Shown: piece after piece, positions 27,952 through 59,179 of the stretch
Numbering within the stretch: the stretch's first letter is position 1
How the letters are laid out: the number at the start of each line of letters is the position of its first letter
Source: Clostridiales bacterium
GTDB taxonomy: Bacteria > Bacillota > Clostridia > Christensenellales > UBA1242
Direction: 5' to 3'
Assembly: GCA_015055745.1 (NCBI GenBank)
Contig: SVHS01000002.1
Location: forward strand, 62,001 to 126,000
Length of the DNA: 64,000 nucleotides
Translations under genes and position numbers: made by a program
The notes under the pieces: model-generated
Databases searched by the model: none
What the model was told of the DNA's origin: nothing
Seen by the model: the letters and a program-made list of their open reading frames with translations, nothing else

Positions 27952-29388
27952 TTATATCAATTTTTCCACATCTTTTACAGTGACTAACTTCATAGTTTTA
28001 GCAAACTCTAAAGTATTGGCATCTATATAGTAAAAGTATACCCCATCGATCCTCTCCGTGATAAATTCATATGCAGATATCTCTGTTCCGCTGTCCAAAC
28101 GGATAATGGCCTTGCTAGACTTGATCACAATATAGTCAAATCCTAAGAGTTTTTCCGCTTCATCAACGCTAGCATTAAATTCTATTTCCCTATCCACATG
28201 ATTTAAAGCATAATTTACTGCCTCAAAACCTATAATCTCTTGAGCAGTCAAATCCACTTTCACTTTCACAAGATCAGGATACATGATCACACCATCAATC
28301 ACTGGAGCTAAATTAATATATGCCACATTTTGATTGACTTCTTGCCATACACTTTCCATACTCTCAAATCCAATGTTGTTTGCAAAATTTTTAGCCATTT
28401 CTTGAGCTTCTTCTTTAGATATTATAGGGTCCCCGCCTTCCGCATATCCTGAAATAGTAATCAATAATCCACCACGCTTGCTGACCTGAGCATTAAATTT
28501 TTTATCATCAACACTCACTTCATAGTCATACGTAGAAATATCACCATTTGTCTCTTGCAAAAATGAGATTTCCACATCTTTTCGATTGCTGTACACAGTG
28601 TTTTGTAGATAATTTCTTGCTTCCGCTTCCGTTATTTCTTTTTCTGGTAAACCTTTTACCTCAGCAGTCTCCAATGCTGTAGAAAATGGCCCATCAAATA
28701 TCATAGACGGATATTCTATAGCTTCACTCGTAAGATTTCCCATACCCGCAGAAAGTTCATTCATTCCAGTACCATCAAACACACTTGCATCTACAAAATT
28801 AAAATTACTATCATACATTCCAAAGCTTTGCTCATTAAAATTTGACTTTATTTCTCCTACCACGATAGCAATTCTATCAAACAATAACTCTTGTTCTACA
28901 GTCAAATCTTCACCCTTATTTAATACAGTAGAATACGCTTCACACACCCCATTTACTTGATTGAAAAATTTTGTGGCAGACACTACATTTTCCTCATCTA
29001 TGGGTAGCACACTGAGTCCAGCCAAGATATAATTACAGTCTTGCATCATATCTTGCATTGTGCTAAGTTTTGATTGTTTTGTATTAAGAGTAGCATACTT
29101 TGACAAATCCACTGCTAGATTGTTTACATTGTCCACCATAGAATAATAGCTGGCAGTATACACTCCTTCCAATACATTCGCATTTTGTTTGCTAGAATTA
29201 TATATCTGATAATATGCAATTAATACACAAGTCAAAATAATCAACAAGCTCACTATAGTCACTATCAATACTGGGATTATTTTTTGTGCATTACTTTTTT
29301 GTTTTGTTTTTTTATCTTCATTTACTTTTGACTGATTATTTTCTTTTGCCTCATTATAATCAACACTTGTAATCTTTTTATTGTCCAT
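27952..29388 (-). CDS. ypeB: Germination protein YpeB
   Basis: 478 residues, normal for YpeB, which is needed for SleB assembly and stability in the spore and for cortex hydrolysis control. One membrane segment lies near the N terminus ('IIPVLIVTIVSLLIILTCVLI', shown in part, about residues 37-60), the rest being outside. Family marks include 'YPSMIFDGPFSTAL' in the middle and C-terminal PepSY-like repeats ('ISKEEAQEMAKNFANNIGF', 'EFNASVDEAEKLLGFDYIV'). It is 104 bp downstream of sleB, the conserved sleB-ypeB order. Transcription in the forespore is expected from known biology; I did not identify a sigma-G site. Confidence 0.93.
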   Translation of the reverse strand: MDNKKITSVDYNEAKENNQSKVNEDKKTKQKSNAQKIIPVLIVTIVSLLIILTCVLIAYYQIYNSSKQNANVLEGVYTASYYSMVDNVNNLAVDLSKYATLNTKQSKLSTMQDMMQDCNYILAGLSVLPIDEENVVSATKFFNQVNGVCEAYSTVLNKGEDLTVEQELLFDRIAIVVGEIKSNFNEQSFGMYDSNFNFVDASVFDGTGMNELSAGMGNLTSEAIEYPSMIFDGPFSTALETAEVKGLPEKEITEAEARNYLQNTVYSNRKDVEISFLQETNGDISTYDYEVSVDDKKFNAQVSKRGGLLITISGYAEGGDPIISKEEAQEMAKNFANNIGFESMESVWQEVNQNVAYINLAPVIDGVIMYPDLVKVKVDLTAQEIIGFEAVNYALNHVDREIEFNASVDEAEKLLGFDYIVIKSSKAIIRLDSGTEISAYEFITERIDGVYFYYIDANTLEFAKTMKLVTVKDVEKLI

Positions 29389-29492
29389 AATTTCTCCTTG
29401 TTTATTTTTAGAAAATTATTTAAAAATTTATTAAATATTATATTTTTTAATAAAAATAATTAATTTTTTATTATTTTTTTAATATTTTTTTA

Positions 29493-30191
29493 TTACACAG
29501 CAAATACATGCTTTCCTATCTGTGTCACTTTTTTAGTGGTCCATATCCACTTGCTAGTAGCAGTAGCTGGATTGTAATAATACACACAGCCGTAAGTAGG
29601 ATCCCAACCATTTAACGCATCATCAGCCGCCTGATATGCTGTCTGATTTGGCTCTAGATTTATCTGTCCATCATTCACTGCTGTAAAAGCCCATGGTTGA
29701 TAGATTACTCCTGCCACAGTATTTGGAAATCTACTATCTTCTACACGATTTAATACCACAGCACCAATAGCCACTTGACCAGTATAACTTTCTCCTCTAG
29801 CCTCAGCATAGATAACTTTCGCTAATAGGTATCTATCATTGCTATTATAATTTGAACTACTAGTAGTATTCTTCACACTCAAACCCATTTTTGCTGCAGT
29901 AAGTGGACCTACTATACCGTCTTGCGTTAGCCCATATCTTTTTTGGAAAGCTTTGACAGCAGCCTTTGTCTTTGGTCCGTTTATACCATCTACATTACCT
30001 TTATAATATCCCCATTTTTTTAGTCTTTTTTGCACCTCTGTGGTGTCTGCCGTCGCTGCAGACACAGTATCCAGTGTAGCAATGGTTTCTACAACCTCAG
30101 ACTGATGAGGAGCATTTACCGCTCCGACACTAGTCGCCACACCTAATAGTCCGCATACTAGCACCATCATAAATATCATCATTTTTTTCAT
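29493..30191 (-). CDS. sleB: Spore cortex-lytic enzyme SleB
   Basis: 232 residues with a signal peptide (about residues 1-24), a peptidoglycan-binding domain (about 52-104, 'VQKRLKKWGYYKG', 'DGINGPKTKAAVKAFQKRYG' in part, 'TQDGIVGPLT') and the C-terminal Hydrolase_2 lytic-transglycosylase domain (about 118-232). The catalytic Glu is predicted to be Glu130 in 'VIYAEARGE', followed by 'GQVAIGAVVLNRV' and 'FPNTVAGVIYQP'. The enzyme cuts cortex peptidoglycan containing muramic-delta-lactam during germination. It precedes ypeB in the expected operon and follows spoIIR by 9 bp. Confidence 0.96.
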   Translation of the reverse strand: MKKMMIFMMVLVCGLLGVATSVGAVNAPHQSEVVETIATLDTVSAATADTTEVQKRLKKWGYYKGNVDGINGPKTKAAVKAFQKRYGLTQDGIVGPLTAAKMGLSVKNTTSSSNYNSNDRYLLAKVIYAEARGESYTGQVAIGAVVLNRVEDSRFPNTVAGVIYQPWAFTAVNDGQINLEPNQTAYQAADDALNGWDPTYGCVYYYNPATATSKWIWTTKKVTQIGKHVFAV

Positions 30192-30200
30192 AATCTCTCC

Positions 30201-30722
30201 CTAATTAAACAAATAATCAAACCATTCAGCGATTTTTGATTTATATTTAATTTGGATATTGTTTTCGTTTTTATTCACAAAACATAAAGGCGGATACATC
30301 ACACACCACCAATTATCACCCTCAGCTTCACCAAGCTCCACTATCACAGCATCATAATACCCAGATTCAAGCGTCGTATTACTGTATGTCCTAGTCGGAA
30401 AATACTCATTAGAGACTTTTATATTTACACTATAATTAAAACCTTTGTTTCTTAAAATTTGATCACATTTTTTGGACAATTCCACACTCTTTTCTTCCAC
30501 TACTTGTATTGCTTTTTCTTTGCTCTCTATATTGCAAAACTCAGGAGTTAAATACTCCACCAAAAAAGCCTTTATTTCATACTTGACACTCTGATCCACT
30601 GCACTATTGCTATTCGCTCTTATATGTAGTCTTAGATAATCATATTCTTCTTTTTGAGGAACACACAAGGCACCCACTATCACAAACATCACCAAACAAA
30701 TAACATAAATAAATTTTTTCAT
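30201..30722 (-). CDS. spoIIR: Stage II sporulation protein R
   Basis: 173 residues from the ATG at 30722; the longer ORF runs back through the upstream terminator. The N terminus is a secretion signal ('FIYVICLVMFVIVGALCV'). Core family motifs are 'LRLHIRANSNSAVDQSVKY' and 'WWCVMYPPLCFVN'. SpoIIR is made in the forespore under sigma-F, secreted, and triggers SpoIIGA to process pro-sigma-E in the mother cell. No clear Shine-Dalgarno precedes the ATG. sleB begins 9 bp downstream, an unusual closeness since sleB is normally a later forespore gene, so readthrough or an internal promoter is possible. Confidence 0.93.
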   Translation of the reverse strand: MKKFIYVICLVMFVIVGALCVPQKEEYDYLRLHIRANSNSAVDQSVKYEIKAFLVEYLTPEFCNIESKEKAIQVVEEKSVELSKKCDQILRNKGFNYSVNIKVSNEYFPTRTYSNTTLESGYYDAVIVELGEAEGDNWWCVMYPPLCFVNKNENNIQIKYKSKIAEWFDYLFN

Positions 30723-30742
30723 ATCTAGATAATCGGTAGAAA

Positions 30743-30775
30743 AAATAAAAAAATACGCAAATTTTATGCGTATTT
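30743..30775 (-). terminator. Terminator of the amidase-like gene
   Basis: Minus-strand hairpin AAATACGCA/TGCGTATTT (30751-30775) followed by a long T-rich run, between the amidase-like stop and spoIIR. Confidence 0.8.
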
Positions 30776-30799
30776 TGATGGTTTTTTGTAAATTTTTAT

Positions 30800-31858
30800 T
30801 TAATTTGGATTTGATCGACCAACGGAAGAATTTAATGCATTCCAAGTATTTCTACCCACCACACCATCAGAAGATAGATTGTTTTCAGTCTGGAAAGCTC
30901 TCACAGCTCTCTCTGTCTCAGGTCCAAAGATTCCATCTAAGCTGGTGATAGGATACAAAAAAGATAGTAATAATTTTTGCAAAAATAATACTGCGCTATT
31001 TCTACTACCTCGTCTCAATACTGTAGCAGACGGGTCGATATTCAACAATTTATTCCAAGTATTTCTACCCACTATACCGTCTGCAGTGAGATTATTGTTT
31101 CTCTGAAAATCCAACACTGCTCTATAAGTATTGCCACCAAAGTCTCCGTCCGCTACTAGATTATATCCGTACTGATTAAGAATGTATTGAAGTATGGTGA
31201 CGAAATTTCCTCTTGAGCCTTGTCTGATGGTAGGGAAATTATTTAGGCTTCGCGCCACATACGGCACCTGTAAAAATTCGCACACACCCTTGCAAGTCGC
31301 CTCACCGACAGCAAGAGTATAATTTGGATTTATCATCAGCTTAGCCTCATCGAAGTTTGTCATAAATCCTGCTTCTATAAGCGTAGAAGGGCAATTTACA
31401 TTACTCAATACCCCTACAGATAATTGACCTACAAATCTTCCATTAGGATTTGCATTTGCTATTATAGATTCATATACTTCTTCGCTCAATTGTCTACTCG
31501 CTGTAGGATATGGATTATAAGGACTATAATAAACCTCCACACCACGAGCCGAATTGAAATTATTGCCCGAGCCGAATGCATTGTATGCAAATGTGACAAG
31601 TAAATTTAATCCAGCACGATTTGCCCTCACCACACGAGTGGAAATATTTACATCTTGTATTTCTGGGTGGATATCATATACTCTAAATCCACACCTTAGG
31701 CACGCCAAAATAAAAGCAATCTTTGCCTCTCTATTAAATTCATTTTCATAAAAACTCCTACCGATATAAGATATTACTGGAGTACGTTTGCCAGCCGTGG
31801 GTGGATTTAACCCATGCTCGTCATTTGCACCTATTAAAAAATCTCTCGCGTTTGCCAT
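30800..31858 (-). CDS. Amidase_3-like protein with two peptidoglycan-binding domains, zinc site apparently incomplete
   Basis: 352 residues. Residues 1-200 match the zinc N-acetylmuramoyl-L-alanine amidase fold (Amidase_3): 'NDEHGLNPPTAGKRTP' with His15, 'ENEFNREA' with Glu40, and 'STLIEAGFMTN' with Glu162. The usual second zinc His ('SIHYNA') is replaced: the sequence is 'VTFAYNAFGSG' with Ala91. Two PG_binding_1 repeats follow (about 210-272 'TVLQYILNQYGYNLVADGDFG'-type in part, and 285-345 'SLDGIFGPETERAVRAFQ'). There is no signal peptide, unlike exported autolysins, suggesting mother-cell or spore action, or use after lysis. Neighbours are spore genes, supporting a cortex or coat role. 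Activity is doubtful given the missing ligand. Confidence 0.85.
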   Translation of the reverse strand: MANARDFLIGANDEHGLNPPTAGKRTPVISYIGRSFYENEFNREAKIAFILACLRCGFRVYDIHPEIQDVNISTRVVRANRAGLNLLVTFAYNAFGSGNNFNSARGVEVYYSPYNPYPTASRQLSEEVYESIIANANPNGRFVGQLSVGVLSNVNCPSTLIEAGFMTNFDEAKLMINPNYTLAVGEATCKGVCEFLQVPYVARSLNNFPTIRQGSRGNFVTILQYILNQYGYNLVADGDFGGNTYRAVLDFQRNNNLTADGIVGRNTWNKLLNIDPSATVLRRGSRNSAVLFLQKLLLSFLYPITSLDGIFGPETERAVRAFQTENNLSSDGVVGRNTWNALNSSVGRSNPN

Positions 31859-35181: not shown

Positions 35182-35217
35182 TATGAAAAAATACTTAGCG
35201 AAATGCTAAGTATTTTT
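35182..35217 (-). terminator. Terminator of veg
   Basis: AAAAATACTTAGC-GAAAT-GCTAAGTATTTTT hairpin directly after the veg stop codon, with a T-run on the minus strand. Confidence 0.88.
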
Positions 35218-35456
35218 CAATCATTAGATATCTTGACTTCTCCACAGAGGATATCGTTGTATGAATAAGTGTAGATAGAGTCTATGTCGAGTGAGCATGA
35301 CTTGACTGTAAACACACTCGCATACACGTCCTCTATCCTCGCACGATAGCTACTGACCTTTCTTCTGCCTCGATTGATATATAGATTGACCTCTGTGCCT
35401 TTGAGTGAAAGGATCTTCTGCTTGATATTGTCTACAGTGTTAGGCATTTTTTTCAT
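35217..35456 (-). CDS. veg: Veg family protein
   Basis: 79 residues from the ATG at 35456, chosen for the AGGGGTGG ribosome site just upstream; the ORF track start is too early. The sequence matches the Veg family: 'IKQKILSLKGTEVNLYINRGRRK' (in part) and 'ARIEDVYASVFTVK', a small SH3-like beta barrel. In Bacillus, Veg influences biofilm gene expression and spore germination; its direct target is unresolved. A perfect Spo0A-box sequence lies between the -10 and -35 elements. It sits between the giant LRR protein gene and hisS. Confidence 0.92.
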   Translation of the reverse strand: MKKMPNTVDNIKQKILSLKGTEVNLYINRGRRKVSSYRARIEDVYASVFTVKSCSLDIDSIYTYSYNDILCGEVKISND

Positions 35457-35490: not shown

Positions 35491-35520
35491 ATAATAATCA
35501 CCTTCGACAAATCTAGACAA
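35491..35520 (-). promoter_or_regulatory. Predicted veg promoter containing a Spo0A box
   Basis: On the minus strand TTGTCT (35515-35520), 18 bp, TATTAT (35491-35496). The spacer contains TTTGTCGAA (35503-35511), an exact match to the 0A-box consensus. Confidence 0.6.
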
Positions 35521-35521
35521 A

Positions 35522-38500
35522 TTATTTATGCCATGTCTTAGAAGTAGGAAGTGTATTTGTAATAGTCGCCTGTCTGATCATTTGGCGTCTCTTTCTCTTT
35601 ACTAGATATATAGTGAGAATGATGATGATTAATAACACTAGACCACCTACTATACCCAGCACTATCCAGAGAGTATTGTTGACTACCTTCTCTGCGTAGA
35701 CTAATATAGCATAGTCATTTAATGCTAAGATAGCCTTATCATGATTTTTTATCATACGACTAACATCTGTCAATTCTCCATCGAAGCAGTAGATACCGCC
35801 ACCAGATAAATCAAACTCGTCCGTAATATAAATAGTATAGTTATCGTGTATAAACTCCTTGCCATTTTTCATTAGCTTGATGACTGTGATATGTGAGATA
35901 TTTTGTATATCATCGAAGACTTCTCCTAGATAAGTCTTGATCTCAGACTCTTCTGTAATTGTAAATATCTTTATCTCCACGCCTTCATCAAAGCCTGCGT
36001 TTGACTCTACATATAGACCTTTTATCTCTGAGGTCAAAACTGAAGCTTTGACATACACATGAGTCTCACTCTCTCCACCGATCTTATACATAGTATTTGT
36101 CATAGCCACGATCACTGTATATCTTCCGCTCTTGTTTATGTCTTGTACTACAGCACCAGATGCGTCTTTATATGTGATAGTGTATAGTGAGCTGCTCAAA
36201 ATAGTATTATTATACTTTGCTTTCACTGATATATTGAGATTGGTATTTACGCCTTCGACTAAAGTATTTTGACCACCAAATATAACTTCTGTTTCCACAT
36301 AAGCATATATCGTCATAGAGCCAGTCACGACTTCAAAAGAGTCAGACTGCGGAGTAAATGTCCAAGTGACAGTATTATTGCCCGGAATCAAGATTTTTGA
36401 GTCAAACTTCATCATACCTTGAGTAGCATAAGTGGAAGACTTCGTTCCACCATAAGGTATTTCACCAAGGCCAAGATCTTGATCAAATTTGATCTTGGAG
36501 ATATCCTGTCCAGCATAAAACAACCAATCTTTCAAATCAATATCAGGAGCTACATTCGGATTAGCTTTTTTCACTGTGTATGTAGCAGTGATAGCGCCAG
36601 TCGCATTGTTTTGTCCTGAGATGATAACTGTATAATCACCTGCATACTTGATTTCAGACACTTCATCACCTGAGCTATTTTTATATATTACAGTGTAATC
36701 ATTAGCTGTAAGTTTGTTCCCATTTGACAATGTTAATGTGATAGTAGGATTTTTATTTAAGCCGTCGTAGTTTGGACTAGCAAATGCAGTCAACATATCG
36801 TCAGTCAATACGACTGGATTGATGACATACTCTGCCGTCCTACTACCAGTCAGTCCATTTTGACCACTGATAGTAAGATAATATGTACCAGCATTTTTTA
36901 TCTCTGTAGCTACTGTTTGTCTAGTTTCATCAGTGTAGTATGTCACAATGAAATTACCAGTCATATCTACACCATTTGAAGTCAATGTGATAGTAGCTTT
37001 TTGTTCTGTACCATTATATGTAGTAGCACTTATATTACCTACTGTGATAGCTGCGTCTGAGATATCTCTCTGTGATATGCTAAATGTAATACGCGCAGAG
37101 CTAGCATAATTGTTTTTACCAGTAATCTCGATAGTACCTGTGATACCCGCGGCGATATTTTCACCATAAGTCACAGTATAGTCATTCGCAGTCAGACCTG
37201 TCTCTTTTATTGTCAATGTAGGACAGATCTGCGTACCTGTATACACCTGACTTGTCACTGCTTCAAACATTTCTACAGTAATAGTCTTCGGAGTAATAAT
37301 ATAAGTAGTGGTTATTGTTCCTCCAAAATTTCCTTGTCCTCTTATAGTCAAGGTATAAGCGCGAGCGTTGATAGGAGTCTGGTCGTACTCCACTTCATAA
37401 TCCACGCCTTCTACCATAGGAATAGTATCATAGCTCATGCTTAGAGTAGTTTTTTGCTCTGAGCCATTATATATTACATCACTAGGCTTAATAGTGAGCA
37501 TACTGTCTTCCAAATTCTTGGCCGAGATAGTAAATGTAGACTTCAATTCACCAGCAAAGTTTCCTTCTCCTGTGATAGTAAGATAATATGTACCAGCATT
37601 GATTACATTAGTAGTCTCATCATTTCTTTCGCTGTCAGTATAATATTTCACGGTGTAATCATCAAGATCCAAAGTATAATCACCTAGCGTCAATGTGATA
37701 TCTGCAGTTTGCTCTGAGCCAGTATAAGGCTTAGACTCTATAATCGCTAGCATATCATTAGACAATGTCCTCTGTACAATCTCAAATGTAAATATGAATC
37801 CACCGCTATATTTTGAGCTAGCGATATCATCAAATGATACTGAGACTGTAGCTGTGCCCACATTGGTATTATTTGTAAATGAGACTGTGAAATCAGTATC
37901 TTTTTCGAGCTGATTGCCACCTATAGAAATCTTGATTTCTGGACAGATAGCTGAGCCAGTGTATTGTTGATCCGCGATAGGTTCTACATCTACATAATCT
38001 GTGTAATTATCCTGATTGATACCCACTTTTACGATGTAAAAGTAGATATTGACAGATCCGCTAAAGTTTCCATTTGCGGGGGCGGTATATGTAATACTAG
38101 CTAATCCTTCACTTGTATTACCCACATAGTTCAGTTCACTAGTCTCATAAGTCTGTCCATTGTAGCGGATAGTCAATGTCGGAGTAATAGCCTCTCCTGT
38201 ATACATTTGATCTGCGATGTACCAGTGACCAGTATCGTCTCCAGATATCTGATAAGCCTGATGATCTCCACAGTAAATCATATCCTCACTGATAGCTTTT
38301 GGAGTGATAGTGATTTCTGCATCGATACTGCTAGTATAATTTCCTTGTCCTGAGATAGTGAGATAATATGTACCAGCATTGATTACATTAGTAGCTTCGG
38401 TCTCCCTAACGCTATCTGTATAATAAGTCACAGTATAATCATCTGTAGCTAAAGTATTACCATTTGCGTCAAGAATACTCATATCCAACACAAGTTCATT

Positions 38501-41500
38501 GCCAGTAAATGTATAGCTATCTGTCAAGATAGGAGTGATATCTGAGATGTCATATTGCGTGATTTCATATGTTGTATACAATTCACTATCTGCTAGCTCA
38601 TAATTACCTTTCGCTTTTGGCACAATCTGCACCTTCACTTTGATAACATCAGTGACTGGAAGAGCTACAGGTTCTCCTTCCTCATCGGTGTAATTAATAT
38701 TATACTCGCTAGCATATACTACACCACCATCATTGTCATAGACAGCCACTGTAAAGGTATGCTCTTCTCCATCGTATACGACACTATCTTCAGATAATGT
38801 CACACTTGTGATTTTCTTTTTGGTGATAGTAAATGGTATGTCCACACTGCCAGTATAATTATTATCTTCTGCGCTAATAGTCACAGTAGCTTCACCCACA
38901 TTGACGTGGTCACTATAAGCAAGACTATATCCTATCTCATCAGTGATATCTTCACCATTCCATAAGATAGTGACAGTAGGTTTATTTTCCTCACCACTAT
39001 AAATGTAGCTATCTTGACTTAACTCTATAGTCAAATCAGATAAATCTTTTGGAGTGATAATGTATTGAGTGTTCAATTCACTACCATCTGCCAAATAATA
39101 ATTTCCATCTTCATTTGGCACCACTTTTATAGCGATAGTCATGGCATTTACAAATGGAGCAAATATCTCCGTCTCTTCATTGTAATACTTTAGAGTATAT
39201 TCATCATCACTTACCACTGAGCCGTCTACATCTGTGACAGTAATAGTAAAGTCATGAGCCTCTCTAAAATATTCACCTTCAGATTTATTGATAGTTATAC
39301 CGCTTAGCAATTTTTTATCGATAGTAAAATCTATCTCTCTAGTGCCAGTATAGTTTCCTGTACCATTGATTATGATAGTGTAGGTGCCAGCATTCTTGAT
39401 TTCAGACACTTCATTACCTAAGCTGTCTTTGTATGCCACATTGTAATCAGTACTCTCTACTAGTGACATACCCTCATAAGTCATATCAATCTCCGGCTTT
39501 TGCTCTGCACCACTGTATACTTTATTTTCTATATCAGCTAGAGATACATCAGTCGAAGAAATGTCCTTGGCTTTGATATTAAATTTTAATGCAAGTGAGC
39601 CAGTATAATTACCTTTAAATGTCACATAAGCGATAGCTTTGTTTGTTTCATTTGTAGCATTTACATTGTTGTCGTATGTGAGTGTATAGTCTGTACCTGC
39701 CTCCAATGTAAAATTCTTGTTAGGTTCTATCGTAGAAGTAGCCGTAGATAGCCCTGGAGTCCAAGGCTTGCCATTGTATATTCTATTATCACTATCTTGT
39801 ATAGCCACATTTACAGCACTATTCTCATCATCTATGACAGTATAAGGATAGATAGTGAAATGCTTACACACATAAGTCTCTTGGAAATTTTCTCCCAAAC
39901 CTTGCAAGAACACCATCGCTGTACCAGCATTGATATTTTGAGCATAGCCATTCACCACATCTACAGTGTATTTTTCTCCGTTTTCGTTTTCTAGAGTCAA
40001 TTCCCCTGTATAATCATACACACTAAAGTCTGTACCCCAAACCAAATCGATAGGTTCTGCACCTGGCTTCGTGTATGTCACTGCTATATCTTCAGCACTT
40101 AATGTGATAGCCTGACCGTCATATATAAATTTATCTTTTATAGCACCTGTAGCCTCTACGGTTTCTATGATAGTGATATCTATAGTCTCACTAGTAAACT
40201 CAGCAGCTACTACTTGGAATTCAGGACTATAAGTATCGGTATAATTTCCTTCCGCCACTATACTCATGACATAAGTATCCACTTGCTTAAAGTCTGTAAA
40301 CTGATGATTTTTAGACTCTATCGTATAAGTATAGTCAGTATCATTGCTATTTAATGTTTCAGTGGTAGTACCATTATTGAAGATAATCTCAGGAGCAAGT
40401 AATTGTCCCACATATACTTGTGCTCCAGCAGTCTCTCTATCGTAGTAGACTTCTGTAGCACTTGCATTGCCGTATTGGTCTACTTGATTGCCATTTTCAT
40501 CTACAAAGTAATATCTAATAGTGATATCGTCATCATTGATACTTTTTGGATATATCACAAAGTCTGCATATGCATAGCCTTTGTAGTTTAGATTATCTCC
40601 GGCTTGCACCAATACTCTGATAGTACCAGCTGATGTAAAGTCCGCAGTAGTCTGCCAGCCACTTGTACCTTCTCTTTGATATGAGACTATATAATCGTCA
40701 GCATCTAGAGTAAGATGATTTTCAGTCTTTACAGCACCGATGACGATTTGATCTTCTAGACTAGATATATTGTATGTGGCATATGTTATGTTATTTTTAA
40801 ATGTCACTGTACTGATAGTAGCAGGTAAGATTTCTATCTCGCCGATTTTTCCGTCAATAGAAGCATCTACAAAATTTGTACTATTAGACTTCACCACCAC
40901 TCTGATGACACCTGCTGATGTAAAGTCTGTAGTATTCTGCCACACTCCACCATTATTTTCACGCTGGTAAACCACTGTATACTCATCAGCATCTAGTGTG
41001 ACATCTCCAGCTTTGACTGTGATATTGATATTATGAGTCTGACCATTGTACACAGTATTACTCATAGATAGTGTGACTGTATCGATAGTCAATGGCTCTA
41101 TACTAAACTCAAGCTCGATAGAGTCAGTATAGTTTCCTTGTCCTGTGATAGTAAGTGTAGCTGTGCCTACCTCTTGGTTCCCTTGGTATGCAATTGTATA
41201 ATCCTTATAGCTATCACTAGATACAAGATAACTAGACAGATTATTATCATAGATCTTAAGACTGGGAAATGTGATACTTCCTCCAGTATAATCTACTGTA
41301 TCATCAAATCCTTCCAATGTGTAGCCATCACCAGATGACAATACTTTTTGATCTATAAAATATGTAGCTTTTTGCGTACCGCTATAGTTTGCGTTTATAG
41401 ATGTGATGACAATAGTCTTTTCACCTGCGTTAGTCGTATCTGTAGGATATGAAACAGTGAAGTCAACATCTTCAGTCAAAGTCTGGCCATCTATCATTAC

Positions 41501-44500
41501 TGTAATACTTGTGGGCTTCTGAGACTTACCATTGTACACCAATCCAGTCGCTCCACCTAGAGTCACTGTAGCTGTATCAAATGACGCACTGGCAATAGTG
41601 AATGTAGTAGTCTTGCTATCAGTATAATTACCTTGTCCTGTGATAGTGATAGTAGCTTCACCCTTAGCAGTATTATCTGCATAAGTGAGTGTATAGTCAG
41701 TATCTTTTACAAGCGAATAATCACCATCTTTCATCACTACATCAGGAGTAAAAGCTGAACCATTGTATACATAGCTTCCTTCTACTGTGGCACTCAATGA
41801 ATCTATACTCTTTGGCTCGATAATATAAGTCGTCTCTATCGTACCGATATAATTACCTTGTCCTAAGATAGAGACATAATATGTACCCGCATTGATTACA
41901 TCGGTGACCTCAGTCTCCCTTTCGCTGTCTGTATAGTATTTTACTGTATAATCACTGTCTAATAATACATTGTTATTGCTGTCTGTAATGGTGATATTCG
42001 GTAGATTTTCTTCTCTGTCGTATTCACTATCCGCTAAAGACAGTGAAATACTAGATATATCATAAGGAGCGATAGTAAATATCTTAGTAATAGTACCAGT
42101 AAAGCTATTTAGTCCTGTGATTGTATAAGTCACACTACCAGCATTGATATAGTCAAAGCTATCATTACTCAATGTCACTTTATAATCAGTATTTTCTTTC
42201 AGTACCACACCTGTGCTAGAATATACAGTATAGGTTGGTTTTTGTTGTTTAGCATTGTATGTAGCAGAATCTATCGACAATACTGCACTAGATATAGCAC
42301 CTTTACCGATGACAAATGTAGTAGATGCACTGCCTGTAAAGTTTTTATTAGTATCTTGAGGAGCGATTGTCACAGTGGCTGTAGTAGCAGAATTATTGTC
42401 AGTATACGAGATAGTGAAATCATCAAAGTCTGTGACAGTCACACCTCCAATAGTCATGCTTGTGACATTCGGAGTGATAGCTTCACCAGCATAAGTGTAT
42501 TCACTACCTTCCAAAACAATAGTAGCTCCTGTGATATTCAATGCTGTGATGCTAAACATATCTTCTATCGTTTTTTCATCAGTGTAATTATTTCCTATAC
42601 CTGTAAATGTACAAGTATAAGTGCCAACATTGATAGGATCAACATCAAAGCTCACTTCAAAATCTGTATTTTCCACCAATGTCCTACCATTTACGATTAC
42701 AGTGAATGTCGGTCTTTGAGCCATAGCATTGTATGTAAATGTAGATTTATTTTGTTGTATATTTGCATCAACTAAGCTAGCCTTATTGATAGTAAATTCT
42801 ATAGATTTAGAGTCAGTGTATTTGAGAGTATCAGTAGGATATATATACATCTTGTATGTACCAGCATTGACAGGCTCAGCTTCATTAGCTAGATCACTAG
42901 CTAAGAAATATTTTACTGTATAATCACCACTATTGATAGTGAAATCTCCTAGTTTTATAGATGTGATAGCTGGTGTCTGAATTTGTCCATTGTATGTAAA
43001 TGAATTAGTATTGATCACCACGTCTAGATAACTAAATGATTTTTGTAGTATTTCAAAAGAAATTTGTTTCGTGCTAGTATAATTATTTTGTCCTGTGATA
43101 GTGATATATGCTGTACCAGCATTTGTATTGTTGCTGTAGCTAACTATATAATCTGTACCGTTTATTAGAGTCTTGGTCTCACCGTTGATAGTATCTTTCA
43201 CTATAGGTTCTGGAGTGATAGCACTACCTGTATAATCATAGTCAGGTATATCGTCGACACTGACATTATTGATATCTTTAGGATTTACTGTGATAGGTAT
43301 AGTCGTGCTACCCATATAATTTCCGCTACCGGTCAATACATATGCATAATCCCCACCGACTGTAGGAGTACCTCTGTATGTAATAGCGATACCGTCTGCT
43401 GGTAGCTCGATGACATATCCACCCATATTTACAAACACGATACTCTCCAAAGTAGGAGCACCATCTCCATATGTAATAGTGGTCGTACCAGTACAAGAAT
43501 CTCTATCTACTGTATAGACAAGCTCAAATGGAGTAATAAAATAATTAAATGATAGTTCTCCGCTATAATGTCCTTTTCCTCTGATGACAAATGATTTGCT
43601 ACCTACATTTACATAGTCTGTAGTGTCACTTAGCACCATTTCGTAGTCCACACCGTAAACCAATGGTTCATTGGTAGCCAGATCTGTCAAATATGTCGTA
43701 GGTACATTTGTTTGACCATTGTACTCTACATTATCTGCAAACAATACTCCTACTGTGCTACTATTCATATCTGTCACAAGTGTAATATCTATTTCATCTT
43801 CCAGCTCTGAATCGCTTAGCATAGACAATATCGCACTCTCTGTAGCCTCAGTACCATCTGCCAATCTCCATGAAGTATTAGTTCCGCTACTAGGTAGTGG
43901 GCTGACAGTAGTCAAATTGTCCCACGTACCATCATTAGCCTTGGTCCAAGTAAGCGCTCTATTGTACAGTTTAGTAATAGTCGTGGTACTGCCTTTTTCG
44001 ATATAATTAAGCTTTACTTCATAGGTTATATCATTTGTGTACTCACTAAAAACATCTAGATTTAATATTTTATTGTACACTGTGCTGTTTTTAAAAATTA
44101 TATTTTCTAAATTTTCACAACCATCAAAAGTATCAAACCCTAAACCTATATAATCATCAAAATTAATCGCCACCGATACTAGATTAGAACAATTTTTAAA
44201 TGCGGCACCACCAATATAATTTACTGATTCTGGTAATATAATCTGTGTTATACCCGTACCTTCAAATATACCAGAATTAACTCTAGTCACATTATCCCCA
44301 AATGCCACACTATCTATATCTTCACAATTAACAAATGTAAATTGTCCATTTGCAAAATCTTGTGTAATATCTATATGACCTTTTACTTCTTCACCTTGTA
44401 TAATTAACTTTTTTGTGTAGTATGTAGGATTCGCAACACTGTAGTTAAAGTTTATATTACACCATTGTTCTAGCGTACCAAGATAATTCATATTTGTGAG

Positions 44501-45460
44501 ATTAGTACAACCACTAAATGCAAAATTCGTAATCTCTGTCAATGTACTTGGCAAAACAATGGAAACTAAAGATGTGCAACCTAAAAATGTTAAATTTCCT
44601 ATCTTTTCTACACCTTCTAGAGTCAAGTTTTCAATATTTGTATACTGGAACGCATATTCCCCTATTTCTTTTACTTGACTAGGTATAGTAAAATCTGCTG
44701 GCAACCCTGTACAATTTGCAAATGCATAGTCTCCAATATATTCCAAAGATTCTGGGAAAATCACATTTGTAATTCCTTCACAATAATCAAAAGTACCACT
44801 TTCTAGTCTAGTGACCCCCTCAGGTATTGTCACTTCTCCTACTATATCCACTCCTTGGATTGTCAACATCTTTGTGATAGCTGTAGGCGTAGATACTAAG
44901 TCAATAGCACACCATTGCTCTAATGTACCAAGGTAATTCATCTTTGTTAAGTTAGTATTGTTTCCAAAAGCATTTATTTCTACAGTAGTTAGACTAGCTG
45001 GTAATTCTATACTTTCTAAAAGTTTTGCTTCTCTAAACGCATTTTTCTTGATTGTGCTCAATCCGTTAGGCAATCTTATATTTGTCAATTTTTGATCATT
45101 TTCAAATATTGATTCACCCAATGTAGTGGTAGCCACACCGTCAGCATTGGCATCTGGTACATATATTGTATAGCTATCTAGTGTATCGATGATAGCCTGA
45201 CCTGCTTCCGAGATGCCTGTGATAGTATCTCCATCGTATGTAAAGTGCTCTGGTAAATACAAATCATACAAAGTCTCTTCTGTCAAACTCATTGCATTAA
45301 TATTATATTGACTTTGAGCAGGAGCAACAGCCGTCACATTCGCGGCACTGACATCTTGATATGAAAAATTATTGTGTAAGCAAATTCCCACACCAGCCAC
45401 ACACGCACTGATAGAACACAATGCTGTAGCGATTATTTTGTTTATGCCCCTCTTTCTCAT
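35522..45460 (-). CDS. Giant surface protein: BspA-type LRR domain plus about 28 Ig-like repeats
   Basis: 3312 residues. A signal peptide ('IIATALCSISACVAGVGI', cleavage near 'VSAANV') and a C-terminal membrane helix ('LWIVLGIVGGLVLLIIIIL') followed by basic 'KRKRRQ' imply secretion and membrane anchoring. Residues about 90-480 are LRR_5/BspA-type repeats ('LTNIRLPNGLSTIKKNAF', 'VIFPESLEYIGDYAFANC'), a fold used in adhesion. From about 600 to 2990 I count 28 copies of an ~86-residue module with signatures 'YNG....P', 'DYTV.Y', 'NAGTY...I.G.GNYTG' and a closing 'F.I'. Residues 2990-3240 are unassigned. ATG has AAGGGGG upstream. Likely role: long extracellular stalk presenting the LRR head. No LPxTG motif. 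Confidence 0.88.
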   Translation of the reverse strand: MRKRGINKIIATALCSISACVAGVGICLHNNFSYQDVSAANVTAVAPAQSQYNINAMSLTEETLYDLYLPEHFTYDGDTITGISEAGQAIIDTLDSYTIYVPDANADGVATTTLGESIFENDQKLTNIRLPNGLSTIKKNAFREAKLLESIELPASLTTVEINAFGNNTNLTKMNYLGTLEQWCAIDLVSTPTAITKMLTIQGVDIVGEVTIPEGVTRLESGTFDYCEGITNVIFPESLEYIGDYAFANCTGLPADFTIPSQVKEIGEYAFQYTNIENLTLEGVEKIGNLTFLGCTSLVSIVLPSTLTEITNFAFSGCTNLTNMNYLGTLEQWCNINFNYSVANPTYYTKKLIIQGEEVKGHIDITQDFANGQFTFVNCEDIDSVAFGDNVTRVNSGIFEGTGITQIILPESVNYIGGAAFKNCSNLVSVAINFDDYIGLGFDTFDGCENLENIIFKNSTVYNKILNLDVFSEYTNDITYEVKLNYIEKGSTTTITKLYNRALTWTKANDGTWDNLTTVSPLPSSGTNTSWRLADGTEATESAILSMLSDSELEDEIDITLVTDMNSSTVGVLFADNVEYNGQTNVPTTYLTDLATNEPLVYGVDYEMVLSDTTDYVNVGSKSFVIRGKGHYSGELSFNYFITPFELVYTVDRDSCTGTTTITYGDGAPTLESIVFVNMGGYVIELPADGIAITYRGTPTVGGDYAYVLTGSGNYMGSTTIPITVNPKDINNVSVDDIPDYDYTGSAITPEPIVKDTINGETKTLINGTDYIVSYSNNTNAGTAYITITGQNNYTSTKQISFEILQKSFSYLDVVINTNSFTYNGQIQTPAITSIKLGDFTINSGDYTVKYFLASDLANEAEPVNAGTYKMYIYPTDTLKYTDSKSIEFTINKASLVDANIQQNKSTFTYNAMAQRPTFTVIVNGRTLVENTDFEVSFDVDPINVGTYTCTFTGIGNNYTDEKTIEDMFSITALNITGATIVLEGSEYTYAGEAITPNVTSMTIGGVTVTDFDDFTISYTDNNSATTATVTIAPQDTNKNFTGSASTTFVIGKGAISSAVLSIDSATYNAKQQKPTYTVYSSTGVVLKENTDYKVTLSNDSFDYINAGSVTYTITGLNSFTGTITKIFTIAPYDISSISLSLADSEYDREENLPNITITDSNNNVLLDSDYTVKYYTDSERETEVTDVINAGTYYVSILGQGNYIGTIETTYIIEPKSIDSLSATVEGSYVYNGSAFTPDVVMKDGDYSLVKDTDYTLTYADNTAKGEATITITGQGNYTDSKTTTFTIASASFDTATVTLGGATGLVYNGKSQKPTSITVMIDGQTLTEDVDFTVSYPTDTTNAGEKTIVITSINANYSGTQKATYFIDQKVLSSGDGYTLEGFDDTVDYTGGSITFPSLKIYDNNLSSYLVSSDSYKDYTIAYQGNQEVGTATLTITGQGNYTDSIELEFSIEPLTIDTVTLSMSNTVYNGQTHNINITVKAGDVTLDADEYTVVYQRENNGGVWQNTTDFTSAGVIRVVVKSNSTNFVDASIDGKIGEIEILPATISTVTFKNNITYATYNISSLEDQIVIGAVKTENHLTLDADDYIVSYQREGTSGWQTTADFTSAGTIRVLVQAGDNLNYKGYAYADFVIYPKSINDDDITIRYYFVDENGNQVDQYGNASATEVYYDRETAGAQVYVGQLLAPEIIFNNGTTTETLNSNDTDYTYTIESKNHQFTDFKQVDTYVMSIVAEGNYTDTYSPEFQVVAAEFTSETIDITIIETVEATGAIKDKFIYDGQAITLSAEDIAVTYTKPGAEPIDLVWGTDFSVYDYTGELTLENENGEKYTVDVVNGYAQNINAGTAMVFLQGLGENFQETYVCKHFTIYPYTVIDDENSAVNVAIQDSDNRIYNGKPWTPGLSTATSTIEPNKNFTLEAGTDYTLTYDNNVNATNETNKAIAYVTFKGNYTGSLALKFNIKAKDISSTDVSLADIENKVYSGAEQKPEIDMTYEGMSLVESTDYNVAYKDSLGNEVSEIKNAGTYTIIINGTGNYTGTREIDFTIDKKLLSGITINKSEGEYFREAHDFTITVTDVDGSVVSDDEYTLKYYNEETEIFAPFVNAMTIAIKVVPNEDGNYYLADGSELNTQYIITPKDLSDLTIELSQDSYIYSGEENKPTVTILWNGEDITDEIGYSLAYSDHVNVGEATVTISAEDNNYTGSVDIPFTITKKKITSVTLSEDSVVYDGEEHTFTVAVYDNDGGVVYASEYNINYTDEEGEPVALPVTDVIKVKVQIVPKAKGNYELADSELYTTYEITQYDISDITPILTDSYTFTGNELVLDMSILDANGNTLATDDYTVTYYTDSVRETEATNVINAGTYYLTISGQGNYTSSIDAEITITPKAISEDMIYCGDHQAYQISGDDTGHWYIADQMYTGEAITPTLTIRYNGQTYETSELNYVGNTSEGLASITYTAPANGNFSGSVNIYFYIVKVGINQDNYTDYVDVEPIADQQYTGSAICPEIKISIGGNQLEKDTDFTVSFTNNTNVGTATVSVSFDDIASSKYSGGFIFTFEIVQRTLSNDMLAIIESKPYTGSEQTADITLTLGDYTLDLDDYTVKYYTDSERNDETTNVINAGTYYLTITGEGNFAGELKSTFTISAKNLEDSMLTIKPSDVIYNGSEQKTTLSMSYDTIPMVEGVDYEVEYDQTPINARAYTLTIRGQGNFGGTITTTYIITPKTITVEMFEAVTSQVYTGTQICPTLTIKETGLTANDYTVTYGENIAAGITGTIEITGKNNYASSARITFSISQRDISDAAITVGNISATTYNGTEQKATITLTSNGVDMTGNFIVTYYTDETRQTVATEIKNAGTYYLTISGQNGLTGSRTAEYVINPVVLTDDMLTAFASPNYDGLNKNPTITLTLSNGNKLTANDYTVIYKNSSGDEVSEIKYAGDYTVIISGQNNATGAITATYTVKKANPNVAPDIDLKDWLFYAGQDISKIKFDQDLGLGEIPYGGTKSSTYATQGMMKFDSKILIPGNNTVTWTFTPQSDSFEVVTGSMTIYAYVETEVIFGGQNTLVEGVNTNLNISVKAKYNNTILSSSLYTITYKDASGAVVQDINKSGRYTVIVAMTNTMYKIGGESETHVYVKASVLTSEIKGLYVESNAGFDEGVEIKIFTITEESEIKTYLGEVFDDIQNISHITVIKLMKNGKEFIHDNYTIYITDEFDLSGGGIYCFDGELTDVSRMIKNHDKAILALNDYAILVYAEKVVNNTLWIVLGIVGGLVLLIIIILTIYLVKRKRRQMIRQATITNTLPTSKTWHK

Positions 45461-45721: not shown

Positions 45722-45746
45722 TAAAAAAGATGAGCTTACGCTCACC
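45722..45746 (-). terminator. Terminator of the acidic zinc-ribbon gene
   Basis: GGTGAGC-GTAA-GCTCATC hairpin followed by TTTTTT on the minus strand. Confidence 0.85.
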
Positions 45747-45749
45747 TAA

Positions 45750-46256
45750 CTAAAAATCTTCATCACCATCATCGTCGTCATCATCATCTTCGTCGTCATC
45801 TATACCGTCTAGCTCAAAATCATCGTCATCGTCGTCATCGTCATCGTCATCTATCTCTTTTTCCATATCTTCATCAAACGCGAAATCATCATCGATGCCA
45901 GCTGTGTCTTCCATATCATCATTGTCGTAAGAATCTACACGATCATCATCGTCGTCATCTTCTTCGTCATCATCGTCAGAAATATACTTGTGCCAATCCG
46001 CTACTTCTCTATCTTCTGCTTCTTCGCTCATCACGATGCCTAGCTCTTGTTTGCAACTGTCACACACTTCTTCATCGCTTTGCACAAAATTGATCTTACA
46101 AATAGGACAAAGCTCAAGATCGCCAATATCATCATCACTCGCCTCTATTAGCTTGAGCTCTTTTTTGCAGACATTACAATACTTGTCTGCCTTTTTGATA
46201 TAATTCAATTCACAACGTGGACATAATATCCATACAGGTTTTGTAGACTTTGCCAT
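45750..46256 (-). CDS. Double zinc-ribbon protein with long polyacidic tail
   Basis: 168 residues. The N-terminal half holds two similar zinc-ribbon units: 'CPRCELNY..'/'CNVCKKEL' (about residues 12-34) and 'CPICKINF'/'CDSCKQEL' (about 50-72), each with two CxxC pairs and ending KEL/QEL, suggesting internal duplication. The C-terminal ~85 residues are almost only Asp and Glu, with runs such as 'DDDDDDDDDDD'. The layout (small folded head plus disordered acidic tail) recalls the RNA-polymerase delta factor by analogy only; the heads are unrelated. Binding to RNA polymerase, ribosomes or basic proteins is possible. It has a promoter, an upstream Spo0A box, AGGAG, and its own terminator, and lies directly downstream of spo0A. 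Confidence 0.85.
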   Translation of the reverse strand: MAKSTKPVWILCPRCELNYIKKADKYCNVCKKELKLIEASDDDIGDLELCPICKINFVQSDEEVCDSCKQELGIVMSEEAEDREVADWHKYISDDDDEEDDDDDDRVDSYDNDDMEDTAGIDDDFAFDEDMEKEIDDDDDDDDDDDFELDGIDDDEDDDDDDDGDEDF

Positions 46257-46281
46257 GTATACTCTCCTTCAAACTTAGTAT

Positions 46282-46310
46282 ATTATATCCACTTATAAAA
46301 TGTTTGTCTA
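46282..46310 (-). promoter_or_regulatory. Predicted promoter of the acidic zinc-ribbon gene
   Basis: TAGACA (46305-46310), 17 bp, TATAAT (46282-46287) on the minus strand, close to the start codon. Confidence 0.7.
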
Positions 46311-46339
46311 CTGATTTTCACATTTTTAAAAAACTTTTT

Positions 46340-46348
46340 TTCGACAAA
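46340..46348 (-). promoter_or_regulatory. Spo0A-box sequence upstream of the acidic zinc-ribbon gene
   Basis: TTTGTCGAA exactly matches the 0A-box consensus, about 30 bp upstream of the -35 element, a position compatible with activation. Confidence 0.55.
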
Positions 46349-46408: not shown

Positions 46409-47155
46409 TTAAGCACCCTCGATTAGCATTTTATCTGCTACGAGCGCGATAAATTCTCCATTGGTAGGCTTTTCGTTGGAAGAATATACCTTGATACCAA
46501 AAAGATTATTGATGTTTTCTATCTTACCTCTATTCCAAGCCACTTCTATCGCATGACGAATAGCTCTCTCAACCTTAGATGCGCTAGTATCATATTTTTC
46601 TGCGATAGTAGGATAAAGTTTCTTCGTGATAGAGTTTATTATCTCTGGATTTGCTATAGCTAGCTTTATAGCCTCACGTAAAAATTGATATCCCTTAATG
46701 TGTGCAGGTATACCTACTGTAATAAATATATTTGTAATCTTTTCTTCTATCTGATTATTTGATTTTGAGTTAAAAAAAACATTAGTCTGAGATTTCTCAG
46801 GATTTACTATATCTGATATCCTGTCTTTCAGGGTTTCTATGTCAAATGGTTTGATACAATAATATTTTGCACCCATACTGATAGCTTTATTGATAAATCC
46901 ATCTATAGATAGAGCTGACTGTATTACAATATTAGTCTTCTGACTCGCTTTTTCAAGGACCTTAAATCCATCGCTATCACGCAATACTATATCTGTCACT
47001 ACCACGTCAGGATTATAATTAGTCACTAATGTGATAAGCTCTTCTCCACTAGTGGTGGTAGCCAATACTTCATGATTTTCATCAGTAAAATGCTTTGTCA
47101 TCTCATTTAAAATATTTTGATCTTCATCTGCGAGTATAATGGTAGTTTTTTTCAT
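46409..47155 (-). CDS. spo0A: Sporulation master response regulator Spo0A
   Basis: 248 residues. The receiver domain (1-120) has the acidic pocket Asp10-Glu11-Asp12, phospho-acceptor Asp55 ('VVTDIVL') and Lys102 ('CIKPFD'); the usual Thr after the acceptor is Ser80 ('IQSALS'). The effector domain (about 135-248) has the Spo0A DNA-recognition helix 'ASKVERAIRHAIEVAWNRG' and ends 'NGEFIALVADKMLIE', both typical. When phosphorylated it binds 0A boxes to start sporulation. AAGGGGG precedes the start. It is divergent from the SPOCS/LysM gene, with a 0A-like site between. The linker is somewhat longer and more polar than in Bacillus. Confidence 0.97.
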   Translation of the reverse strand: MKKTTIILADEDQNILNEMTKHFTDENHEVLATTTSGEELITLVTNYNPDVVVTDIVLRDSDGFKVLEKASQKTNIVIQSALSIDGFINKAISMGAKYYCIKPFDIETLKDRISDIVNPEKSQTNVFFNSKSNNQIEEKITNIFITVGIPAHIKGYQFLREAIKLAIANPEIINSITKKLYPTIAEKYDTSASKVERAIRHAIEVAWNRGKIENINNLFGIKVYSSNEKPTNGEFIALVADKMLIEGA

Positions 47156-47494
47156 GTTTCCCCCTTAAAATTTGATGTCCATATTGTTTGTCGGACATAG
47201 CTCTATATTAGCAAAAAAGTGCGAAATATTAGTAAAAGAAATATCTATAAATTTGCTTATATTTAGATTTTTTTCATATATAAAAAACTATTATGTCGAA
47301 TTTATTTCCCACTAGATGTCTAATCAAAAACTATTTGCACATTTTTTATTTTTTCATGTGAGTTTTTTCTTATATTTACCGATTTTTAGTACTTTTCATC
47401 TTTCAATGTAGAAAAGATTTTTTATCTTTAAATTTCACCAAAGTATCATATTTCTTCTGCGTAAATTATACATTATTTAAGGACAGGAGGTTGT
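47156..47494. promoter_or_regulatory. Divergent intergenic region spo0A / SPOCS gene with a Spo0A-box-like site
   Basis: This 339-bp AT-rich gap carries the ribosome sites of both genes (AAGGGGG for spo0A, AGGAGG for the SPOCS gene) and TGTCGAA at 47294-47300, the 7-bp core of the 0A box. It could serve Spo0A autoregulation. I could not pick single convincing promoter pairs. Confidence 0.5.
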
Positions 47495-56651: not shown

Positions 56652-57229
56652 ATATTTTGACTTATTTTCAAGAAAAATTTTGAATCTTTTTTATACCAAA
56701 AGTTATCCACATTTCCACCAAATTTATACCTGATTTTTTTGAGCATATTAATATATATTATATAATAAATTATTTAAAAATCTAATATCAAATAAAATAA
56801 TAAAAATATATAAATTTTAAGTATCAAATAATTTAAAAAATACTATTTTATAGCGTGTTTTAACAAATAAATTTAATTTATAATTAAATAATTATTTATC
56901 AAATTTTAACTTAAAAAATTAAATAAAATTTATCAAAAATGTTACTAAAAAATTTAATTTCGCAGTCGCATACACAGGCGATTTATTTTATAAATTTTTT
57001 TAATTTTTGATAGTGATTTTTCTATTAATTTTTGTGGAAAAGTGGACAACTTTATAAAACACAATATTTAGTGGTGTCTTGTTTCATTTTCGACATTTTT
57101 CATACAATTTTTATCCACAATCGATGTGTTTAAGTCTGTAGATAAAAATGTAGACAAATATAAAATTGATGTGGACAACCTATAAAATCGCCCAGGAAAC
57201 ACAATCTTACAAAACTTTTCTCGCACTTA

Positions 57230-58849: not shown

Positions 58850-59056
58850 TCAAAAGAGATTCTTAGTATCATCTTTATTTAAAGAAATTAAAAATCCGTC
58901 TTTATCGCAAGTAAAATCGCAGTCGTCATTTGAACATCGAAATACTTGATCCGAGTCGTCCCAATATACTTTTTCATTACAATCAGGACAGCAAAAATTT
59001 TTACATATATTAAAACGTATTCTTCTTTGGTTGGATCTAATTAGTTTTTTTAGCAT
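58850..59056 (-). CDS. Small basic/zinc-ribbon protein, unknown function
   Basis: 68 residues from the ATG at 59056, selected because GGAG lies 8 nt upstream; the ORF track start is earlier and lacks a site. The N terminus is basic ('KKLIRSNQRRIRFNICK') and a zinc ribbon follows: 'CPDCNEKVYW' and 'CSNDDC' (about residues 23-46), which fits binding to nucleic acid or a partner protein. No family recognised. It lies between dnaA and recF, reading toward dnaA, and its upstream region contains the inverted Spo0A-box repeat. Confidence 0.72.
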   Translation of the reverse strand: MLKKLIRSNQRRIRFNICKNFCCPDCNEKVYWDDSDQVFRCSNDDCDFTCDKDGFLISLNKDDTKNLF

Positions 59057-59133
59057 AGCATACTCCTTGTCTTTAAGCGTTGGAATGAAATAATAACATA
59101 TACAAATAAAGAAAAACAAAAGGAAAAAATAAA

Positions 59134-59179
59134 AAATTTCGACAAATTTAATGTTTTTTATTCTTTTTTGTCGAAATTT
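59134..59179. promoter_or_regulatory. Inverted pair of perfect Spo0A-box sequences / possible recF terminator
   Basis: AAATTTCGACAAA (59134-59146) and TTTGTCGAAATTT (59167-59179) are a perfect 13-bp inverted repeat with a 20-nt spacer; each arm holds TTTGTCGAA. On the minus strand a T-rich run follows, so it may end recF, act as an operator for the small zinc-ribbon gene, or both. Confidence 0.6.

Follow-up and report, generated by a model that had tools for sequence, protein, structure and literature searches.

The delta subunit of RNA polymerase (RpoE) joins a small folded head, a HARE-HTH domain, to a long acidic tail, and the double zinc-ribbon families DZR (PF12773) and DZR_2 (PF18912) are built of tandem CxxC..CxxC units. 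The protein described here, ZR, resembles both in part. Like delta it carries a small folded head and a long acidic tail that is probably disordered given its composition, but its head consists of zinc fingers, and HARE-HTH (PF05066) has no match in it. Its eight invariant cysteines fall into two units of the DZR kind, which putatively bind zinc, whereas its signature CPRCxLN..CxVC and its acidic tail are absent from the DZR and DZR_2 models. These two are the best Pfam matches of ZR (E ~1e-4) and both stay below cut-off, DZR with 22.8 bits against a gathering cut-off of 27.3 and DZR_2 with 22.3 bits against 27; a distant family member (L147) reaches 20.8 bits with DZR. The flagellar-region protein YvyF (TIGR03826) and the FmdE treble clef (PF23475) weakly match one finger only, YvyF with 17.9 bits against a cut-off of 124.15, and the acidic tail is not part of the model. 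None of the curated family models tested reaches its cut-off on ZR, so that no named family with another role claims it; an earlier note knew of no named system with this layout. A PDB sequence search with ZR gave a best E of 1.6, and a literature search found no report on the protein.

The AlphaFold model of the ZR head is of low confidence overall (pLDDT 69, pTM 0.31). Within it finger 1 is predicted with moderate confidence (pLDDT > 80) as a hairpin and a helix, and at the second CxxC the model shows a hairpin and then a helix in treble-clef fashion. Comparison of this low-confidence head model with the folds in the PDB (Foldseek) gave no significant match.

The ZR gene, its protein and its promoter

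The gene lies in a 64-kb stretch of DNA, the window, of a Candidatus Onthoplasma-like genome of the Christensenellales (0.88 Mb, 7 contigs, 96.65% complete). Onthoplasma has been placed in family UBA1242 of this order, a reduced-genome family in which sporulation genes have been reported (PMC12306168). SpoIVA was found in the genome of the window, and genes for Spore_II_R, a SleB-like cell-wall hydrolase and YpeB stand consecutively at 27952-30845 (minus strand), so that sporulation and germination genes are retained in this 0.88-Mb genome. Rfam detected two tRNAs in the window and otherwise had no match there.

ORF calling placed ZR at 45750..46256 on the minus strand, beside spo0A, as an ORF of 168 aa whose ATG start has AAGGAGAG just before it as ribosome-binding site. 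Finger 1 (CPRCELNYI..CNVC, residues 12-30; 46167..46223, minus strand) is spaced C12PRC15-x11-C27NVC30 and contains invariant columns in alignments A1 and A2; finger 2 (CPIC-x11-CDSC, residues 50-68; 46053..46109, minus strand) is spaced C50PIC53-x11-C65DSC68, its cysteines being invariant in both alignments. The acidic region starts with a W-x-x-Y motif (45984..45995, minus strand), whose W88 is nearly invariant in A2. From residue 95 to the end at 168 (45753..45974, minus strand) extends the polyacidic tail, 74 aa with 52 D/E (70%) and 2 K/R; the protein has a calculated pI of 4.05 and a charge of about -58. The codons of the tail are a mixture of GAT, GAC, GAA and GAG, and short imperfect repeats occur in it. 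Judged from its relatives, the tail is no accident of one repeat, because every tailed relative has an acidic tail. The double zinc finger with acidic tail beside spo0A, as first read by the earlier note, is thus borne out by the ORF, the cysteine motifs and a neighbour that matches TIGR02875. The accompanying figure of ~85 acidic residues agrees with the length of the acidic region and not with the count of acids. The view that ZR is not an enzyme stands as the absence of an enzyme domain, none having been matched among curated domain models.

Upstream of the gene the conserved AGTAGACAA..TATAATATACTAAG contains a sigma-A-type promoter, TAGACA-17-TATAAT (46282..46310, minus strand). The promoter, already called good from the window alone, matches the sigma-A consensus at 11 of 12 positions (46310..46282) and is kept in nearly every member of the genus, including the loci L013, L014 and L015, which do not have spo0A immediately upstream. 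The exact extended motif, in the 12 genomes having one, occurs once per genome, before ZR. An AGTA..TACT dyad round the promoter was rejected as an operator, its right arm being less conserved than the -10 hexamer. Directly 3' of the ZR stop lies a terminator-like intrinsic hairpin (45728..45747, minus strand). Given its own ribosome-binding site, promoter, 0A-box-like site and hairpin after the stop, ZR is probably transcribed alone.

Distribution, gene order and sporulation

Protein searches detected ZR in 55 of the 60 genomes of relatives compared, and none of the 34 genomes of the genus, that of the window counted, lacked it. By profile search it was present in 224 of the 247 genomes of the order and in 34 of 293 of the class, a few of the latter matches being weak. 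Outside the class it appeared in one genus (~1e-19), a member of which (L160) also has an acidic region past the fingers. The search for the head in other Clostridia that had been proposed earlier therefore found homologs across the order, the class and one genus beyond. By this comparison a chance ORF is excluded, because homologs occur in so many of the relatives. Usually single-copy, ZR is a core gene retained by over 90% of an order common in the gut and by genomes as small as ~0.8 Mb, and no curated model tested accepts it.

The diverse alignment A1 contains 12 invariant columns, the eight cysteines and P8, R9, L12 and N13, and all eight cysteines are invariant in A2 as well. Analysis of 151 tails gave a median length of 100 aa with on average 60% D/E and 3% K/R, and among relatives whose tail reaches 20 aa none falls below 43% acidic residues. 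W-x-x-[YFL] occurs in 127 of the 151, the Trp lying 14-24 residues past the last Cys in most members. Two further tail features were rejected: an SSB-like C-terminal Phe, patchy and clade-bound (22 of 128 distinct tails, vs 4.8% Phe in tails), and a second motif, [IL]SLxxL (10 of 128 only). Single N-terminal fingers of the CPxCELNYI type head two unrelated proteins that have no Pfam match (L056:3997-4521 and L057:4279-4914, both minus strand); judged from these copies, this finger also exists as a separate module.

The neighbour spo0A (46409..47155, minus strand; PF08769) is identified by TIGR02875, which it matches with 246.7 bits (cut-off 200). Usually the gene downstream of ZR is veg (PF06257), a small conserved gene found there in many lineages; Veg is unrelated to ZR and marks the cluster only. 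In the window veg lies at 35217..35456 (minus strand), parted from ZR by a BspA-type LRR gene of 3312 aa (35522-45460, minus strand), a neighbourhood that is split here and kept in congeners. In the LRR protein further repeats are numerous, and a membrane anchor lies at the C-terminus.

The usual order in the genus is spo0A-ZR-veg-histidyl-tRNA-synthetase-like gene. The order spo0A-ZR-veg-SPOCS/LysM is met repeatedly in other families and orders, where the next genes are either ispE-like or spoIIR together with one resembling a peptidoglycan hydrolase. Among 153 ZR loci Spo0A was present in 73 and veg in 65, counts that are not rates, as the loci are of unequal lengths and some repeat one species. 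The linkage to spo0A that the earlier note wished to see in other Clostridia is found as adjacency in many lineages, and its recurrence indicates that it is real and older than the order. Elsewhere the context differs: tsaE-tsaB-ZR in another genus of the same family (TsaE named from sequence), engB-like GTPase-ZR-metallophosphoesterase in further lineages, and other contexts including rodA and polA. A neighbourhood as varied as this, from spo0A-veg to polA, argues against a role in a single pathway.

Comparison of two lists covering the 247 genomes of the order revealed how far ZR follows sporulation. SpoIVA occurs in 214 of them; 20 have ZR and no SpoIVA, and 10 have SpoIVA and no ZR, indicating at the level of gene content that ZR neither needs sporulation nor is needed to keep sporulation genes. 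Fifteen of the 20 are also without any Spo0A_C match, among them two assemblies of 2 contigs each (G843, G929) and a genome (G038) whose ZR copy (L043) retains the head and the acidic tail. One family (f4) accounts for 11 of these 15 genomes, so that few independent losses are represented, though four other families contribute one each. SpoIVA is absent from 13 of 23 genomes without ZR vs 20 of 224 with it, a difference to which two families contribute most.

Candidate functions of ZR

We favour, at a probability of roughly 45%, the reading that ZR has a housekeeping accessory role, for which it combines a docking head with a polyanionic tail, and is no obligate component of the Spo0A pathway. 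ZR would be expressed strongly and probably constitutively, usually from a single copy, in the Christensenellales and some other clostridial lineages. Its two small treble-clef-like fingers, presumably holding zinc, would form the docking head; this may bind a machine that handles nucleic acid, either RNA polymerase or the ribosome. The Trp motif and a polyanionic tail of ~75-120 residues could then serve as an electrostatic arm, which would compete with nucleic acid or mask basic surfaces on the partner, by analogy with the tail of delta. The position beside spo0A would be due to the ancient gene order spo0A-ZR-veg. An abundant accessory protein, working by docking and electrostatics, is suggested by the small zinc-finger head, the positioned Trp, the long polyanion, the lack of any enzyme domain and a promoter both strong and conserved; as its partner we infer, with most weight, the polymerase or the ribosome. 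Against a housekeeping role, the sporulation neighbours spoIIR and SPOCS/LysM recur beside ZR and genomes lacking ZR are more often without SpoIVA, though most of that signal stems from a few clades; the head model is also of low confidence and has no significant PDB match.

A delta-like mode of action is possible and a fair analogy. That ZR is an RNA polymerase accessory subunit doing the job of delta in a clade without delta is nevertheless unlikely. The acidic tail on a small folded head, the strong promoter and the near-universal presence are what such a substitute would show, and HARE-HTH is absent from 40 of 40 genomes of relatives; but this domain, which defines delta, is absent from ZR itself. 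The absence of delta here is weak evidence too, because other Clostridia commonly lack it. We regard as rather unlikely a broader proposal, in which ZR is an unrecognised, near-universal accessory subunit of RNA polymerase (or of the ribosome) in the Christensenellales and allied lineages, delta-like with an unrelated zinc-finger head, its gene marking an ancient spo0A-ZR-veg cluster. As an accessory factor of either machine, ZR would occupy the position that delta has in Bacilli.

It is quite unlikely that ZR is a ribosome- or translation-associated zinc protein, of biogenesis or hibernation, with an acidic arm. ZR does stand beside engB or tsaE-tsaB in some lineages, but these contexts are lineage-specific, no homology to ribosomal proteins was found, and the Foldseek matches to ribosomal proteins were not significant.

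Spo0A boxes and the remaining readings

Control by Spo0A was examined from the boxes themselves. An exact 0A-box-like site, TTTGTCGAA, lies at 46340..46348 (minus strand), ~65-73 bp upstream of where transcription probably starts. The 9-mer was found 4 times in the window, where 0.56 are expected, and in the 153-bp gap between spo0A and ZR ~0.0013 are expected by chance. In congeners the site is absent from this position: among 35 distinct upstream regions of the genus one, from a single species, carries it. The box upstream of spo0A (47294..47300, plus strand; TTCGACA in the direction of spo0A) serves as positive control for the clade. The exact heptamer precedes spo0A in 46 of 55 loci, among which some species recur, and in all of the 46 but one its distance to the spo0A start is 120-156 bp; footprinting with the heptamer therefore works in this clade. 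Its retention points to a conserved autoregulation of Spo0A in the clade, or else to control of the SPOCS/LysM gene that diverges from spo0A. Pattern searches, from which all box counts outside the window come, found TTTGTCGAAA 9 times in the genome vs 0 for the reversed control, and 5 of 8 sites read lie between genes.

Together, the data leave the box noted earlier as an exact TTTGTCGAA that is present and not conserved, and the idea that Spo0A regulates ZR generally found no support, with the box in one species and ZR in 15 genomes devoid of Spo0A and SpoIVA. Spo0A control as a trait of the ZR family is not supported by these sequences. A species-specific input of Spo0A is possible, since the exact 9-mer is improbable in the gap and TTTGTCGAAA exceeds its reversed control. 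Adjacency and one exact 0A box do not establish Spo0A control, and that reading of ZR is weak. In its full form, Spo0A~P would bind the box and switch ZR at the onset of sporulation, and ZR would then remodel transcription. This we consider quite improbable: the rare 9-mer, the excess of TTTGTCGAAA over its reversed control in the genome, with 5 of 8 sites read between genes, and the adjacency of ZR to spo0A in many lineages speak for it, but the ZR box is kept in 1 of 35 regions while that of spo0A is kept in 46 of 55 loci, ZR persists in the 15 genomes without Spo0A, and the promoter is near consensus already and is the conserved part. A zinc or metal buffer, storing ions on eight invariant cysteines and dozens of carboxylates, is very unlikely, as conservation extends to P8, R9, L12 and N13 (A1) and to the positioned Trp, residues for which a simple buffer would have no use, and the loci read contain no metal-handling neighbours.

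The remaining exact copies of TTTGTCGAA in the window lie elsewhere. One is at 35503-35511 (minus strand), in the interval that separates veg from the end of the giant LRR gene. Two form an inverted pair, 59138-59146 (minus strand) and 59167-59175 (plus strand), in the space that parts a small zinc-ribbon ORF (58850-59119) from a recF-like gene, near dnaA and dnaN; a further TGTCGAA is found at 57089, upstream of dnaA. Binding of Spo0A near the origin is known in Bacillus subtilis, and it is possible at these predicted sites.
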